Both the position numbers and the translations under genes were made by a program. The notes beneath the pieces were generated by a model. The model saw only the letters and a program-made list of their open reading frames with translations, was not told where the DNA came from and made no database searches. Positions 3,431 through 17,254 of a DNA stretch of 43,620 nucleotides are shown one piece after another. Each line of letters starts with the position of its first letter. Position 1 is the stretch's first letter. The stretch is taken from the IMG/VR virus record IMGVR_UViG_3300008267_000518, positions 1 through 43,620 of that record; one strand, given 5' to 3'. The stretch comes from a virus.

Positions 3431-3472
3431 AAGAGGTCAAAGAAGTTTTATCTCAATATATGTATAATAGAA

Positions 3473-3537
3473 TTTCAATTTCGAAGACGACACACTCGGC
3501 AGATCCGGAAAGTCACTGAAGTTAGTATTAATTGAAA
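3473..3537 (-). other. inverted repeat enclosing a GC-richer core
   Basis: The 147-base gap between the genes at 3175-3375 and 3577-3828 has no open frame I would call. An 8-bp perfect inverted repeat (TTTCAATT / AATTGAAA) encloses about 49 bases that are clearly less AT-rich than the surroundings. It could be a structured 3' UTR or small RNA, but the inner part does not fold obviously by eye. Confidence 0.3.
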
Positions 3538-3576
3538 CTCAAACCCTTATGTTAAAAAAGATAGGCGCCTTTGGTT

Positions 3577-3828
3577 TTAAAGGTCGGCTTTGTATCCGTA
3601 TCCTCTCTCCTCAAGCGCTTTGTTAAGTAGTCTTTCAAAATGCCATCTTGGTTCTGTGTCGTAAACCTCTCGATGAACAGAAGCTACTTTTTTTATTTCT
3701 GTTTCTGAAATTTTCCAAAATTCTCTTTCAGGAATAAATTTGTCTCCATTAATAATAGCTTTAATGTTTTCCAAAGCTTCATTACAGGCTTGGTTACCTT
3801 CTGGTGTGTACATTTCAAATTCTATCAT
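3577..3828 (-). CDS. phage protein, unknown
   Basis: 83 residues: a likely helical acidic/aromatic protein (MIEFEMYTPEGNQACNEALEN, then ISETEIKKVASVHREVYDTEPRWHFERLL). No motif was recognised. The start at 3828 has the recurrent context AAGGTTATG and lies about 20 bases from the -7 box of P10. After the stop an imperfect hairpin (CCTTT/AAAGG) and a T6 run may end the transcript. Confidence 0.78.
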   Translation of the reverse strand: MIEFEMYTPEGNQACNEALENIKAIINGDKFIPEREFWKISETEIKKVASVHREVYDTEPRWHFERLLNKALEERGYGYKADL

Positions 3829-3849
3829 AACCTTAATTTTTTATTTAAT

Positions 3850-3882
3850 TAAATATAACAAGCTTATTTAAAAAAGCCAAAC
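3850..3882 (-). promoter_or_regulatory. promoter P10
   Basis: TTTGGC-N18-TATATTTA on the minus strand. It drives the gene at 3577-3828 and lies at the left edge of the TAGGGA repeat cluster. Confidence 0.83.
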
Positions 3883-3892
3883 TTATTTTAAT

Positions 3893-4130
3893 CTCCCTAC
3901 TTAATCTCCCTACTTGTTTTCTCTGCTTGTTTTCCCTAATGTAATATAGCTTGTTTTCCCTACAAAGCCAAACTATTTTGCATAGGAGTTGTATATACTT
4001 ATATCTCTTATATATAGAAAAGCTTGGAGGGGGTGCGTGGGTGGGTTAATCTCCCGAACACCATACACCACCCGTTCTCCCTACGTTTGTCACCTACCCG
4101 TTCCCCCTACACTTTACTTGCTCTCCCTAT
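3893..4130 (-). repeat. cluster of about nine degenerate TAGGGA repeats
   Basis: The stretch 3829-4138 has no gene. On the minus strand the unit TAGGGA(G/A)AAC(AAG or GGG) recurs near 3893, 3906, 3918 (degenerate), 3930, 3954, 4047 (partial), 4070, 4094 and 4118. Two neighbouring copies read GTAGGGAGATTAA, two read TAGGGAAAACAAG, and two carry AACGGG. The region is strikingly purine-rich on the transcribed-sense strand compared with its surroundings. It could be an iteron-type origin, a protein-binding array or a regulatory leader; the sequence alone does not decide. Confidence 0.6.
3941..3973 (-). promoter_or_regulatory. promoter P11 inside the repeat cluster
   Basis: TTTGGC-N18-TATATTAC on the minus strand. 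Its spacer contains one TAGGGAAAACAAG repeat unit, so a repeat-binding protein could control it. It has no gene of its own and would transcribe through P10 into 3577-3828. Confidence 0.7.
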
Positions 4131-4138
4131 GTCACATA

Positions 4139-4294
4139 TTATTTAGGTTTGTCACAATTATGTACATAAAACCTTCCACATTTATGTTCCCACAACCTAC
4201 AATTATTATTCCCCGTCACCCACACCTCCGGCCTGTTCTTCCTATCCCATTCCTCTATTATCCACCTATGAAATTCACCTTTATACTTATTCAT
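4139..4294 (-). CDS. W-rich array protein A
   Basis: A 51-residue gene starting MNKYKGEFHRWIIEEW. Its N-terminus matches, loosely, the F-x-x-W-(L/I)-x-x-(Q/E) pattern of the next five genes, so it is the last member of the array in transcription order. It begins 1 base after the TAG of the preceding gene (TAG-G-ATG). Cysteines (C32, C39, C47) and aromatic residues are frequent. Function unknown. Downstream lies only the TAGGGA repeat cluster. Confidence 0.66.
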   Translation of the reverse strand: MNKYKGEFHRWIIEEWDRKNRPEVWVTGNNNCRLWEHKCGRFYVHNCDKPK

Positions 4295-4295
4295 C

Positions 4296-4499
4296 CTACT
4301 TATTTTTTCTACCTGGTCCTCCTATACTCACTATACCCTCCCATTTCCACTTATGTTGTTTTATATGTTTAACATATTCTAATTCTGAATTTAATAACAT
4401 GTTTCTATTTACTTCCCATATTATCCATCCTTTTTCTCTTGGTTGTGGGTTATAAGCATATTCTTGTTCTTTAAGCCATTTTATAAAGTCTTTGTTCAT
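4296..4499 (-). CDS. W-rich array protein B
   Basis: 67 residues. The N-terminal motif MNKDFIKWLKEQEY is nearly the same as in proteins C and D. The rest is tryptophan- and lysine-rich (WIIWEV, HKWKWEG) and different from its neighbours. The first 29 bases overlap the end of gene C in another frame. The shared N-terminus with variable tails suggests a common docking helix joined to different effector parts; that is inference. Confidence 0.74.
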   Translation of the reverse strand: MNKDFIKWLKEQEYAYNPQPREKGWIIWEVNRNMLLNSELEYVKHIKQHKWKWEGIVSIGGPGRKNK

Positions 4500-4662
4500 A
4501 CATTTTCCTCCATAGTCCCCATGTGTACTCTCTTCTATATATTACTTCATGTCTATTATTTTGATCTGTATGATACATTACTTCGTCCCACATGTATGGA
4601 ATTCCTGTAATAGTTAATGTATATTCTTGTTGTTCAAGCCACTGTTTAAAGTTTTCATTCAT
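4471..4662 (-). CDS. W-rich array protein C
   Basis: 63 residues with N-terminal MNENFKQWLEQQEY, then a variable tail rich in Y, W and R. The start overlaps the stop of gene D as ATGA. Its last ten codons (MYEQRLYKMA) are an out-of-frame reading of the start of gene B, so the C-terminus was probably made when a neighbouring copy was placed against it. Function unknown. Confidence 0.74.
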   Translation of the reverse strand: MNENFKQWLEQQEYTLTITGIPYMWDEVMYHTDQNNRHEVIYRREYTWGLWRKMYEQRLYKMA

Positions 4663-4805
4663 TTCCTAATTGTATCTTTAACTTTTCTTATACCAGCTGG
4701 TGTTCCCCATGTCTGAGGCCATGTCTCAAGTAACATAAATGTATATTCACGCTTTAGAGGAAAATATTCCTGCTCCTCAAGCCATTGTCTAAAATGGTAA
4801 TCCAT
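4659..4805 (-). CDS. W-rich array protein D
   Basis: 48 residues if started at MDYHFRQWLEEQEYF, chosen because it lines up with the array motif of its neighbours; a longer frame reaches back inside gene E. The tail is variable (LLETWPQTWGTP). It overlaps the end of gene E by 17 bases, and the same DNA encodes the acidic tail of E in the other frame. Function unknown. Confidence 0.72.
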   Translation of the reverse strand: MDYHFRQWLEEQEYFPLKREYTFMLLETWPQTWGTPAGIRKVKDTIRK

Positions 4806-4995
4806 CATCATCGTCATCATCATTAGTTTGACTAAATATATATTTTCTATTTGGTTCCCAATAATCTCCTTCACTCCACATTCTCATAAACCAATTTTTA
4901 GGATCTTGAACATTATTCCTATTAAATAATACTTCTAAACGTCCTCGTTTTATCCACTCTGGTATCACCCAATTATTTATAAAATCTTTATTCAT
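4789..4995 (-). CDS. W-rich array protein E with SSB-like acidic tip
   Basis: 68 residues from MNKDFINNWVIPEW, a looser form of the array motif (an upstream ATG five codons earlier is possible). The C-terminus is TNDDDDDDGLPF. An acidic run ending in a hydrophobic-Pro-Phe tip is the hallmark of bacterial SSB C-terminal tails, which dock replication and repair proteins. There is no OB fold in front of it, so this would be a tail without the SSB core. The run of GATGAT codons could also be chance repeat expansion. Confidence 0.7.
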   Translation of the reverse strand: MNKDFINNWVIPEWIKRGRLEVLFNRNNVQDPKNWFMRMWSEGDYWEPNRKYIFSQTNDDDDDDGLPF

Positions 4996-4997
4996 TT

Positions 4998-5186
4998 TTA
5001 AACTCTCCATTCATTGCTTATTATTTCTTCCCAATTATAGTCTATAATTTGTGATTTTAATTCATGTATTATCATCCAGTGATTTACTTTCACATCATAA
5101 ATCATCCAGTAACTTGGACTACGGAAATAAGGTCTAAATTGAGCATATTTTTGTTTTGTTAACCAATATTCAAATTTAGGGTGCAA
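4998..5186 (-). CDS. W-rich array protein F (TTG start)
   Basis: 62 residues. The array motif reads HPKFEYWLTKQKYAQ and is preceded directly by TTG, with no ATG at that place, so a TTG start is likely. The tail is rich in Y/W/I. The start lies inside the last codons of the preceding gene (overlap 11 bases) and the stop overlaps an alternative start of gene E. Function unknown. Confidence 0.66.
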   Translation of the reverse strand: MHPKFEYWLTKQKYAQFRPYFRSPSYWMIYDVKVNHWMIIHELKSQIIDYNWEEIISNEWRV

Positions 5187-5487
5187 AATTAGGTATATGT
5201 TTTATTACAAATTCTTTATTTATTATTCTATAACCTACTAATATCTGTCTATCAGGAGCACTTTGTCCTTGTTTATGTTTAAAAACAGGCATACACCATA
5301 ACCAATTTTGATAAATAAAGTTATATAGTTCTTGTTCTGGTTTAGTACATTGTTCTATATTTAACAATAAACGTTTCAAGAATGGTTCTTGTATTTGTTT
5401 TTGTTTTTTATTGTGTTCTGATAGTATAAATCCTATTTGTTGGAACTTGATATGTTCTTCTTGGTCTATTTCTTCTTTTGATTTCAT
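5176..5487 (-). CDS. array protein G, LYxF-type
   Basis: 103 residues, the longest of the array. A charged N-terminal helix (KSKEEIDQEEHIKFQ) is followed by FLKRLLLNIEQ and EQELYNFIYQNWLW. The LYxF(I/V) core with an aromatic tail recurs in the next two upstream genes. No known domain was recognised. Confidence 0.74.
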   Translation of the reverse strand: MKSKEEIDQEEHIKFQQIGFILSEHNKKQKQIQEPFLKRLLLNIEQCTKPEQELYNFIYQNWLWCMPVFKHKQGQSAPDRQILVGYRIINKEFVIKHIPNFAP

Positions 5488-8331: not shown

Positions 8332-8364
8332 TAAATATAACATCTTTGTTTTAAGAGGCCAAAT
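8332..8364 (-). promoter_or_regulatory. promoter P12 (ligase)
   Basis: TTTGGC-N18-TATATTTA, followed by GATTATG. Transcription probably starts within a few bases of the ligase ATG. The -33 box begins one base after the old stop codon of the CHU_C-like gene. Confidence 0.86.
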
Positions 8365-8436
8365 CTATCTTATTAAAGTAATATTTCCTCTTTTAATTTT
8401 ATATAGGTCAGTTCTATAAACCCTATATCTCATCAC
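8365..8436 (-). pseudogene. detached C-terminal end of the CHU_C-like domain
   Basis: In another frame from the secreted gene upstream, the minus strand reads VMRYRVYRTDLYKIKRG followed by NITLIR and a stop at 8365-8367. Endings of the type KRGNITLIR are typical of the last strand of the gliding-motility/T9SS type B C-terminal domain, so this is the missing end of the gene at 8433-8672. The two frames can be joined only by a frame change in the few codons between about 8436 and 8447. Confidence 0.7.
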
Positions 8437-8672
8437 GCATAATAATCATCACCCCCATCCCACTTAGCATTACAATCTTGAGTGAACCATACTATTTCAC
8501 CTAACCTATTAAATAAAGTGAATTCAAACACAGTTAATGTATCTTGAGTATAAAACGTTATATAGTCGTTATACCCATCGTTATTTGGGGTAAACGAATT
8601 TGGTATGTAAATTTGACTGTAGACGTTTAAACCCGTTAATATTAGGGTTAATGTTATTAATTTTTTTATCAT
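8433..8672 (-). CDS. secreted CHU_C / T9SS type B-like domain, frameshifted
   Basis: 79 residues as read. A signal peptide (MIKKLITLTLILTGLNVYSQ, cut after YSQ) is followed by IYIPNSFTPNNDGYNDYI, FTLFNRLGEIVWFTQD and KWDGGDDYY. These are the hallmark strands of the gliding-motility-associated C-terminal domain that Bacteroidota use as a type IX secretion signal. The frame closes at TGA before the last strand, but the expected end (KRGNITLIR) is present in another frame down to 8365. Here the domain is the whole mature protein, with no cargo. It may be a tail, surface or decoy protein, or a decaying gene. Confidence 0.8.
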   Translation of the reverse strand: MIKKLITLTLILTGLNVYSQIYIPNSFTPNNDGYNDYITFYTQDTLTVFEFTLFNRLGEIVWFTQDCNAKWDGGDDYYA

Positions 8673-9271
8673 GGTATATATAGTACTGTTGGATTGTCTT
8701 TATGAATTTCTATTTCAGGATATTTTTCTTTAAATGTTTGAGAGTTGAATGGTTTAGTAATTAAGTGGAAACCATTTTTAGTAGGTATAATAGCTATACA
8801 TTTACCATCACTAACATCTTTAGCTTTAGGTTCACACTCATAATCAATAAAAGCCATCATTAGTGGACTTGGATTTCCATCATCATCAATATCAACAATC
8901 CATGTTTTCTCACCTTTAGGTTCACAATTGTAACGACCAATAATTGTTTCTAAACTTGATTTAATTCCATCATGTTGTTCATTCCTAATCAATTCCACAT
9001 TGTGTCTCAAACATTCAATATTAATCTTACTCCACTTACGTCTATTCAAATGAATGTAAGCACGAGCATTAAACATTTGACACATTTGAATTATTTCAGC
9101 TTCATTCTTTTCTAATTTTTCTAAACTAGAAATCATATAAGAACGAATAATTCGATTTTTAGAACCTAACTCAGGTATCTCTTTTTTACGTTGAATGATT
9201 TGAATGAAGTAGAAATAATAATCTTCTTCAAACTTCAACATTGATTTTATTTGTTCAAAATTATTTATCAT
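8669..9271 (-). CDS. conserved phage protein, primase-like motifs
   Basis: 200 residues. Features: YFYFIQIIQRKKEIPELG, ARAYIHLNRRKWSKI, KTWIVDIDDDGN, IPTKNGFHLITKPFN and an end DNPTVLYIP. I recognise this layout as a family found in many Bacteroidota phages, without a known function. The pairing of D-x-D with a later N-G-x-H resembles archaeo-eukaryotic primase cores, but this is suggestive only. It overlaps the signal-peptide gene by 4 bases (ATGA). It is transcribed from P13. Confidence 0.75.
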   Translation of the reverse strand: MINNFEQIKSMLKFEEDYYFYFIQIIQRKKEIPELGSKNRIIRSYMISSLEKLEKNEAEIIQMCQMFNARAYIHLNRRKWSKINIECLRHNVELIRNEQHDGIKSSLETIIGRYNCEPKGEKTWIVDIDDDGNPSPLMMAFIDYECEPKAKDVSDGKCIAIIPTKNGFHLITKPFNSQTFKEKYPEIEIHKDNPTVLYIP

Positions 9272-9275
9272 ACTC

Positions 9276-9308
9276 TGAATATAACAAAAAAGCCTGGCAT
9301 AGCCAAGC
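9276..9308 (-). promoter_or_regulatory. promoter P13, fused with terminator
   Basis: CTTGGC-N18-TATATTCA on the minus strand; the -33 box lies within the 5' arm of the terminator stem. It drives 8669-9271 and the CHU_C-like gene. Confidence 0.82.
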
Positions 9309-9309
9309 T
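9284..9309 (-). terminator. intrinsic terminator of the lysis unit
   Basis: 8-bp stem AGCTTGGC/GCCAGGCT (one G-T pair), loop TAT, then TTTTTG, on the minus strand. It lies 30 bases after the last lysis-cassette gene. It shares its bases with P13. Confidence 0.8.
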
Positions 9310-9336
9310 TTTCATTGAAATGTATGTAATTTTATA

Positions 9337-14682: not shown

Positions 14683-15096
14683 TTAATTTGATAAAGGTGC
14701 TTTAATTGCGGGATGTGATTGATAATTCTCTAAAATGACATCATTAGTTGACGAACAATAGATTCCATCTTGAACTATTACTTTAGGTAGTTCATAAGGT
14801 GTTCTAGTTATTTGTTCTTTAGCTTGGTCAATGTGGTTTGAATATAAGTGTACATCACCCAAGTTACCAATCAACTCATCAGGAACCATATTCATTTCAT
14901 CTGCAATCATTATAAGTAATAAACCATAAGAAGCAATGTTGAATGGTAAACCTAAGAATGTATCTACTGAACGCTGATTCCACATTAAAGAGATATATCG
15001 TTGTCTGTCTTGCTCTCTCGTATAAACTTGAAATCCATAATGACAAGGTGGAAGAACCATTTGGTCTAATTCACCTACATTCCAAGCATTAACCAT
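14683..15096 (-). CDS. thyA: thymidylate synthase, C-terminal part
   Basis: 137 residues beginning MVNAWNVGELDQMVLPPCHYG, with the catalytic cysteine C18 in LPPCH, then QRSVDTFLGLPFNIASYGLL, GDVHLYSNHIDQ and the end IKAPLSN. This is the second half of ThyA (dUMP to dTMP with methylene-tetrahydrofolate). In the same frame the DNA upstream of the ATG also reads TNPDSRRL, which is thymidylate synthase sequence too, so the open frame extends into the junction. It is separated from the N-terminal part by a frame change near 15122. Confidence 0.85.
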   Translation of the reverse strand: MVNAWNVGELDQMVLPPCHYGFQVYTREQDRQRYISLMWNQRSVDTFLGLPFNIASYGLLLIMIADEMNMVPDELIGNLGDVHLYSNHIDQAKEQITRTPYELPKVIVQDGIYCSSTNDVILENYQSHPAIKAPLSN

Positions 15097-15121: not shown

Positions 15122-15685
15122 TTAAGGTCGTTGATCTTTTAAGTCATAATTAGTCACATTCTTTCTACCCCAACTTCTCCATTGCTTACCATATATTGGA
15201 CCTAATTCACCCCACTTCTTAGCAAACTCTGTATCATTTTTTATCCTTTCAATAAACTCATCTTTAGAGTAGGGTTCAATAGTTGGTACTCCGTTTGTAT
15301 CAACAGAGTATGATTTTAAGTAATGAACAATATCCTTATCACGAATAACTTTTTTACAATAATTCTTATAAGCATCACCATCCCAAATATGACAATCATT
15401 ATCAACAAGGTATTTGATATTAGTATCACCTCTTAAAAACCATAACAATTCAGTTGTAATTGTTTTGAATGGCATCTTTTTAGTAGTGAGTAAAGGAAAC
15501 CCATCTGACATTTTATGTCTGATTTGTCTTCCAAATACTGATATTGTACCTGTACCAGTACGATCTTTCTTTTCTACTCCATTATCAAGAATGTCTTGAA
15601 GGAGCAATTGGTATTGTAAATCTAAATTATTACCTACATGCTCATAAGCACCATTAGGTCCAATTTGAAAATCATCTGATATCAT
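15122..15685 (-). CDS. thyA: thymidylate synthase, N-terminal part
   Basis: 187 residues: [23 protein letters not shown] (phosphate-binding loop, 41-47), [29 protein letters not shown] and [12 protein letters not shown] are ThyA hallmarks. The frame stops after DLKDQRP, where the family continues with DQ(I/L)... and NPDSRR. The continuing sequence is present one base out of frame, and about four residues look missing at the joint. A simple deletion, an assembly error or frame change at translation would all fit. As it stands, neither half has the full active site. Confidence 0.85.
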
Positions 15686-16075: not shown

Positions 16076-16571
16076 CTGTTATTTGTTTTTCGGGTATGCT
16101 TGTTATTTGTTCTTCTTCGTTTGGTTCATCACTTTGTGGTGTGTAAGAAGGTGTAGATTTTGTTTTGTATTGTTTCTTTAATTTTTCTCTATATTTTTGG
16201 TAAGATGACTCAAAAAACACTCCTACCAAAACAGGAAATATAATAAAAGTGAATATTAAAATAGTGAATATATCATTTGATATTGCAATGGATAAAGCGA
16301 AATAAAACGATCTAAGCATATAAAACTGAGTACGATGCCACTTATCAGTTAAAAATACTAAAGCCGTTGTACTGAATGGAAATTTCTCAGGAAACTTAGG
16401 AGTGTATAAACCAAAATACCACCAATGTTTATTTTCTCCAGATTTAGTAAGATCATATTTTTTATCCCATTCTAAATCCTTTACCTCTTCATCTACTAAT
16501 GCATCTAATCTACCTTTAAAGTGTCCCGCTAGTGACATAAACACTCCAATCAAAAACATAGTTGTTATCAT
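16062..16571 (-). CDS. phage membrane protein with polar tail
   Basis: 169 residues. An N-terminal span (MITTMFLIGVFMSLAG), a soluble part with the conserved-looking WWYFGLYTPKFPEKFPFSTTA and VFLTDKWHRTQFYML, two further spans (YFALSIAISND, ILIFTFIIFPVLVGVFF), and a charged cytoplasmic tail (EPNEEEQITSIPEKQ). The W/F-rich segment is familiar from other Bacteroidota phage membrane proteins of unknown function. It starts as ATGA overlap with the GH16 gene. Confidence 0.76.
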   Translation of the reverse strand: MITTMFLIGVFMSLAGHFKGRLDALVDEEVKDLEWDKKYDLTKSGENKHWWYFGLYTPKFPEKFPFSTTALVFLTDKWHRTQFYMLRSFYFALSIAISNDIFTILIFTFIIFPVLVGVFFESSYQKYREKLKKQYKTKSTPSYTPQSDEPNEEEQITSIPEKQITDELH

Positions 16572-17254
16572 ATATTTGTATATTTAAAATTTTTAACTAA
16601 CATGACTGAGTCATTAGTGTAATCCTCTTCTTTTTCAATTCCGTTATTAAAAATAACCCACATCTCTATATCTTTAAACCATTTTAAGATATTGTTGTCA
16701 GTTACTTGTCTCACTAATTTATTATTATAGTATATAGAAATTTCATCTGGAGACCAAACTAACTTAAAATTAATATATTCTCTATCAAATCGTTTCCACA
16801 TCATGTGAGATTTTGATTTAATACTTTTATTATTAGGGGCTACATCATAATGAACATTAGAAGCTAAACTATAATAAGGAATATATTTTGAAGTATATAA
16901 ACCACTTTTACGACTCCAACCCTCAAATATATCAATTTCAGGTGGCCAAGTTTTAGTAGCGTATAACCAAAAAGCAGGAAATAAACTTGTACCCATAGGT
17001 AACATTACATCTGCTTCAAATGTTCCATAAGTGAATGGCTTCTCAGATGATACTAAACCAACTCCAATTTTATTTTTATGAATAGTGGTTCCATTAACTG
17101 TAGCCTCTCTATAATGGTATTTAGTTTGAAGTCTTAAAATACCATCAGTTACATCAACACATTCTGAGTCATACCACCAAAATGAATCATTTGGGTGAAA
17201 ATCACCCCATGGTTGTTTTGTACGCCATTTATATCCTGAGAATTCTACCATCAC
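16568..17254 (-). CDS. GH16-type glycan hydrolase, cytoplasmic form
   Basis: 228 residues. The GH16 active-site motif EIDIFE (E106, D108, E111) lies after TYGTFEADVMLPMG and FPAFWLYATKTWPPE, and is followed by the usual beta-sandwich strands (SNVHYDVAP, FKLVWSPDEISIYYNNKLV). Family enzymes cleave beta-1,3/1,4-glucans, agars or carrageenans. No signal peptide is visible, so the protein would act after lysis or on the virion. It lies between membrane-protein genes (4-base overlaps on each side). The substrate cannot be told. Confidence 0.86.
   Translation of the reverse strand: MMVEFSGYKWRTKQPWGDFHPNDSFWWYDSECVDVTDGILRLQTKYHYREATVNGTTIHKNKIGVGLVSSEKPFTYGTFEADVMLPMGTSLFPAFWLYATKTWPPEIDIFEGWSRKSGLYTSKYIPYYSLASNVHYDVAPNNKSIKSKSHMMWKRFDREYINFKLVWSPDEISIYYNNKLVRQVTDNNILKWFKDIEMWVIFNNGIEKEEDYTNDSVMLVKNFKYTNI

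Follow-up and report, generated by a model that had tools for sequence, protein, structure and literature searches.

The window, a virus record of 43,620 nt (43.6 kb), has the gene content of a large tailed phage of the Bacteroidota type. It encodes a DNA ligase, a metallophosphatase, the halves of a thymidylate synthase, GroEL/GroES, a clamp loader and ClpP, together with a long run of glycosyltransferases, and many of its genes have matches in the 94-kb phage contig G002. The host of the virus is a gliding-type (Bacteroidota) bacterium. Among these genes lies a phage-borne, free-standing type IX secretion system (T9SS) type B sorting domain, which is broken (Table 1).

Table 1. Features of the sorting-domain locus in the window and passenger-free copies in other phages
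Feature	Record	Position	Strand	Remarks
79-aa open frame	Window	8433..8672	-	Signal peptide and truncated T9SS type B sorting domain
Predicted Sec signal peptide	Window	8616..8672	-	Residues 1-19; probable cleavage VYS/Q; from direct reading and homologues
N-terminal two-thirds of CHU_C/TIGR04131	Window	8451..8609	-	Contains PNSFTPNNDG; from profile matches
Tandem stop codons TGA TGA	Window	8430..8435	-	At the break
Out-of-frame C-terminal tail	Window	8365..8436	-	Ends in YRTDLYKIKRGNITLIR and a stop; frame two bases on
Promoter-like TTTGGCC..TGTTATATT	Window	8334..8362	-	Belongs to the DNA ligase gene downstream; motif present in ~12 copies; end of the two-gene unit
orf200	Window	8669..9271	-	phrog_14949 (PHROGs), unknown function; upstream of the T9SS frame
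Terminator hairpin overlapped by phage promoter	Window	9278..9313	-	Ahead of orf200; the two-gene unit begins here
Bare copy	L005	1346-1672		108 aa; 56% identical to the window copy; TIGR04131, 39.2 bits
Bare copy	L013	1887-2222		111 aa; TIGR04131, 38.7 bits
Bare copy	L029	4989-5312		107 aa, or 116 aa with a GTG start farther upstream; 30.1 bits, below 35
Bare copy	L163 (huge 642-kb phage LR756502)			116 aa

The 79-aa frame reads MIKKLITLTLILTGLNVYS/QIYIPNSFTPNNDGYNDY...WDGGDDYYA and ends in two stops. It matches Pfam CHU_C with an E value of 1e-10 and 42 bits (cut-off, 27) over profile positions 2-54 of 86 only, and NCBIfam TIGR04131, “T9SS type B sorting domain,” with 36.8 bits (cut-off, 35) over positions 2-53 of 85; the domain is incomplete in the window, its frame breaking off at position 53-54 of the 85-86 in the profiles. 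A predicted signal peptide is kept in four homologues, with probable cleavage between S or G and Q (TYS/Q, LYS/Q, and GYS/Q). No passenger region is present, as the mature protein starts 2 to 3 residues ahead of the first motif in the window copy and in those of the viral contigs L005 and L013. The description in the earlier note of a signal peptide followed only by a CHU_C/T9SS type B domain was therefore borne out, with exact coordinates. No type A sorting domain was found in the window.

The stop of orf200 and the start of the T9SS frame overlap by 4 nt (ATGA), which suggests coupled translation. The two genes lie between successive promoter copies and so form a small two-gene unit, which adjoins a group of genes of the secreted and lysis type, encoding an SLT transglycosylase and an endolysin-like protein. 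An ATG stands so close behind the motif copies at 9286 and 8342 that leaderless transcripts are possible. In L030, a phage contig of 123 kb, an orf200 homologue (660-1238) is located ~2 kb from a 602-aa T9SS type B cargo (3468-5276), hinting that orf200 and T9SS cargo travel together.

From the tandem stops onward, the frame two bases on from the 79-aa frame reads VMRYRVYRTDLYKIKRGNITLIR and then a stop. Aligned with the intact tail of the L013 protein, this frame scores 45, a value reached by none of 2,000 base shuffles, and a T9SS-B-like C terminus before a stop, expected 0.005 times per window over six frames, was observed once, at the tail. The resemblance is therefore not due to chance, and the closing strand does lie in another frame up to the next promoter, as had been claimed. 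The earlier account of the break as a frame change was right in that the frame differs but incomplete in that ~22 nt net are also missing relative to the intact relatives: the stretch from the conserved YYA/S to the RG of the last strand spans 44 nt in the window and 66 nt in both L005 and L013. By this comparison, the break in the window copy is a net loss of ~22 nt and not a single-base slip. One such loss would be the simplest reading; smaller separate losses together with a shorter hairpin are a possible alternative.

An AlphaFold2 model of the intact L013 protein (pLDDT of 77) has strands at residues 48-56, 62-66, 85-94, and 101-109. Because the window frame reaches only as far as the counterpart of residue 81, it lacks strands 3 and 4, two of the four predicted β strands. 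When this model was compared with solved structures, T9SS substrate domains were among the best matches: NucA (8glk_D) ranked first and PorZ (5m11) fourth, and RemZ (8gl8_D) and RemA-CTD (8gl6_D) were also matched, all with E values of >0.001, which lends moderate support to a T9SS C-terminal-domain fold. Each of five conserved motifs in the last 100 residues of a Flavobacterium johnsoniae type B domain is needed for secretion (PMC12618676), and the window product is therefore predicted to be inactive. The window copy is probably a null allele, predicted to be neither secreted nor carrier binding, provided that the break did not arise during assembly or amplification.

The domain is present in related phages, a comparison that the earlier note had proposed, and intact copies consisting of a signal peptide plus the domain (107 to 116 aa) occur in three viral contigs and a 642-kb phage. 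In L005 and L013 the domain is complete to the C terminus and in frame. The L005 contig also carries a ligase 66% identical to that of the window, and the L029 copy lies a short distance upstream of thyA. These copies show that the bare form is a real phage gene. Other phage copies form the C-terminal end of proteins of 185 to 1,109 residues; a near-identical 190-residue type B cargo with a short passenger was also seen in three viral contigs (L031:335-907, L032:1179-1751, and L034:4701-5273). In L039, L040, L041, and G002, whose ligase or orf200 genes mark them as close relatives, the DNA compared showed no copy, and this absence indicates that the gene is accessory and dispensable. A search with the window peptide alone found no close relative in viral_contigs, and the bare domain has no family of its own in PHROGs.

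In a tree of 65 domains, built on a short alignment and with many open forks, the window, L013, and L005 copies form one supported clade (95/83). The L029 copy groups with the long phage cargoes of L030 and L024 (98/88), and the L163 copy groups with another cargo of its own phage, LR756502 (100/96). Bare copies thus occupy three positions, two of them beside longer phage cargoes, which points to repeated origin; the bare form most likely arose at least three times. A free-standing domain was found in none of the 80 closest bacterial genome matches. The 94 CHU_C matches in three bacterial genomes all fall in frames of at least 266 aa, except for one partial match in a 105-aa frame. When short bacterial frames were sought in 150 genomes, three of the four fetched ran off contig ends and one was a true, nearly bare protein of 142 aa (L159:1062-1490). 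By this bacterial census, drawn with a single motif (PNSFTPNN), the bare form is rare in hosts and not strictly phage-only.

The preferred reading, given a probability of about 0.45, is that the window carries a broken copy of an accessory bare-domain gene whose intact form would be a decoy for the T9SS carrier or translocon, the window allele being null unless the break is artefactual. The domain identity, bare architecture, recurrence, and break were shown above, and the sequence of export, carrier binding, competition, and exclusion is inferred. The intact protein would reach the periplasm by Sec during infection, fold there as a bare sorting domain, and be recognized by the host T9SS (SprA translocon plus PorP/SprF-type carrier). 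Present in quantity, it would occupy carriers or be displayed instead of a real adhesin; SprB-like proteins would no longer be loaded, and the infected-cell surface would be altered such that competing phages are excluded. Such a rivalry between the domain and host adhesins, over scarce SprF/PorP carriers or over the translocon, with an altered surface and the exclusion of other phages as its outcome, is regarded as plausible, at somewhat short of even odds.

Several reports bear on these steps. Type B domains pass from the translocon to dedicated PorP/SprF-type carriers, to which they remain bound (PMC9143113; PMC12635249). Type B secretion requires SprF-like carriers, which are scarce and act stoichiometrically, and a type B fusion made in excess was secreted only if its carrier was coproduced (PMC12618676). 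A PorP/SprF gene was found in none of 15 phage records, which are mostly fragments, so that a phage carrier could be missed. A phage without its own carrier would use that of the host, and with carriers scarce and stoichiometric, the bare domain would compete with adhesins such as SprB. The gliding/T9SS apparatus is needed for infection by many flavobacterial phages, and a decoy would therefore alter the infected surface and exclude competitors. gld/spr mutants of Flavobacterium columnare are phage resistant (PMC9233685), and SprB and RemA are proposed receptors in Cellulophaga (PMC13288928). By analogy with the resistance of the gld/spr mutants (PMC9233685), the gene may serve in superinfection exclusion. 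The bare type B domain is a putative inhibitor of T9SS or gliding. Against the decoy reading, earlier work, as cited in PMC12618676, held that up to 235 residues can be required for a type B protein to be secreted efficiently, more than the phage protein contains.

The earlier note had left room for a real mutation, a switch, or a sequence error. The thymidylate synthase gene (thyA) is also split by a frame break, near position 15124 (minus strand, 15122-15685 and 14683-15096), and has lost 8 or 17 nt net, according to which residues are aligned. It is intact in L029, L035, L039, L042, and L045. Two unrelated genes are hence frame broken within 7 kb, both intact in relatives, and a phage of this kind should benefit from thyA; the breaks could accordingly be amplification or assembly errors, with the gene of the virus intact, a serious contender that is nonetheless judged a little less probable than its converse. 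A search for either junction allele found no other contig with the junction, a negative that carries little weight. An artefact would, however, have to account for a net loss of ~22 nt rather than of a homopolymer base, and GroEL, the ligase, the glycosyltransferases, and ~50 other genes with homologues are intact. Indel noise across the whole contig was rejected, as thyA and the T9SS gene are the only broken genes among those with homologues; the pattern does not match the noise of a long-read consensus. The breaks may stem from artefacts of amplification or from a defective genotype that is dominant. A regulated switch, by a ribosomal frame change yielding a longer protein or by reinitiation, is very improbable. 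The stop overlaps the ATG of the tail frame (TGATG at the break), an overlap that can allow reinitiation, but the reinitiated peptide would have 22 residues and no signal peptide. The single slippery heptamer, GGGTTTA at 8423, lies downstream of the tandem stops, and none precedes them; a frameshift product would still lack the strand 3 motif PxxxYxY, and the relatives L005 and L013 use a single frame.

The intact form could also work otherwise than as a decoy. At the cell surface, type B proteins remain attached to PorP/SprF (PMC9143113; PMC12635249), and the closest intact copies keep the complete C terminus, so an exported bare domain might be anchored via such a carrier and cover or replace a receptor, with no general block of secretion. 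The mature protein of ~90 residues, however, presents nothing beyond the sorting domain, and such masking, hard to tell from a decoy, is considered unlikely. Less probable still is decay, in which a longer T9SS cargo of a phage or host would have lost its passenger and left a remnant that at no time functioned as a bare domain. The nesting of the L029 and L163 copies beside long phage cargoes is what passenger loss would give, and the window copy is broken. Yet four other genomes have intact copies of this bare architecture, in which the signal peptide directly adjoins the domain, and it most likely arose at least three times; mere remnants should not persist as open frames that retain both ends. 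The proposal of the earlier note that a free-standing domain could load or block the secretion machine is the best mechanism left. As a broader and more tentative claim, with the odds leaning against it, repeated evolution in Bacteroidota phages may have turned a type IX sorting domain without a passenger into a self-contained inhibitor or decoy of the secretion and gliding apparatus of the host, which would be the first phage anti-T9SS protein. To our knowledge, no phage protein acting on the T9SS or gliding machine has been described, including in the papers searched.

The phage gene shares with T9SS type B C-terminal domains (TIGR04131/Pfam CHU_C, PF13585) the PNSFTPNNDG and WDG motifs, an above-cut-off score, the predicted fold, and an N-terminal signal peptide. 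It differs in having no passenger, and in the window copy the last third is out of frame. SprB and other F. johnsoniae type B substrates (PMC12618676) belong to the same sorting-domain family and presumably use the same kind of carrier, but these host proteins have a passenger and are often encoded beside a carrier gene, whereas the phage gene has neither. Cryophage likewise has phage genes that use the host T9SS and are variable accessory genes; its three cargo genes, for which superinfection exclusion was suggested by the authors, are of type A with passengers (endoglucanase, GH39, and PA14), in contrast to the passenger-free type B form here (PMC7468147). Proteins of uncultured Caudovirales annotated in BFVD as “Gliding motility-associated C-terminal domain” (A0A6J5L8Z9, A0A6J5NJX2, and A0A7S9STS8) share the fold and viral origin but have 187 to 406 residues and a passenger region. 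A literature search combining CHU_C and phage returned unrelated papers only, and the literature searched contained no account of type B domains without passengers in phages. Phage-borne T9SS cargo is already known from the type A genes of Cryophage; the passenger-free type B form is new.

Several phages have the natural bare type B domain of ~90 residues in intact form; it could readily be used to jam or label the T9SS, and with it the model of carrier competition in type B secretion could be tested. Should it prove to be just an odd cargo, it would still show that type B sorting is exploited by phages in addition to the published type A.

Other features of the window were also noted. The motif TTTGGC-N17-TGTTATATT(C/T)A is repeated on the minus strand at 127, 1645, 1885, 2293, 2565, 2858, 3408, 3860, 8342, 9286, 11570, and 20871. 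A glycosyl hydrolase family 16 protein (PF00722; E value, 3e-13) with no obvious signal peptide is encoded in this phage genome at 16568-17254 (minus strand). Between 4296 and 5186 (minus strand), tandem small frames resemble mutual paralogues (MNKDFIKWLKEQEY, MNENFKQWLEQQEY, MDYHFRQWLEEQEY, and MHPKFEYWLTKQKY).
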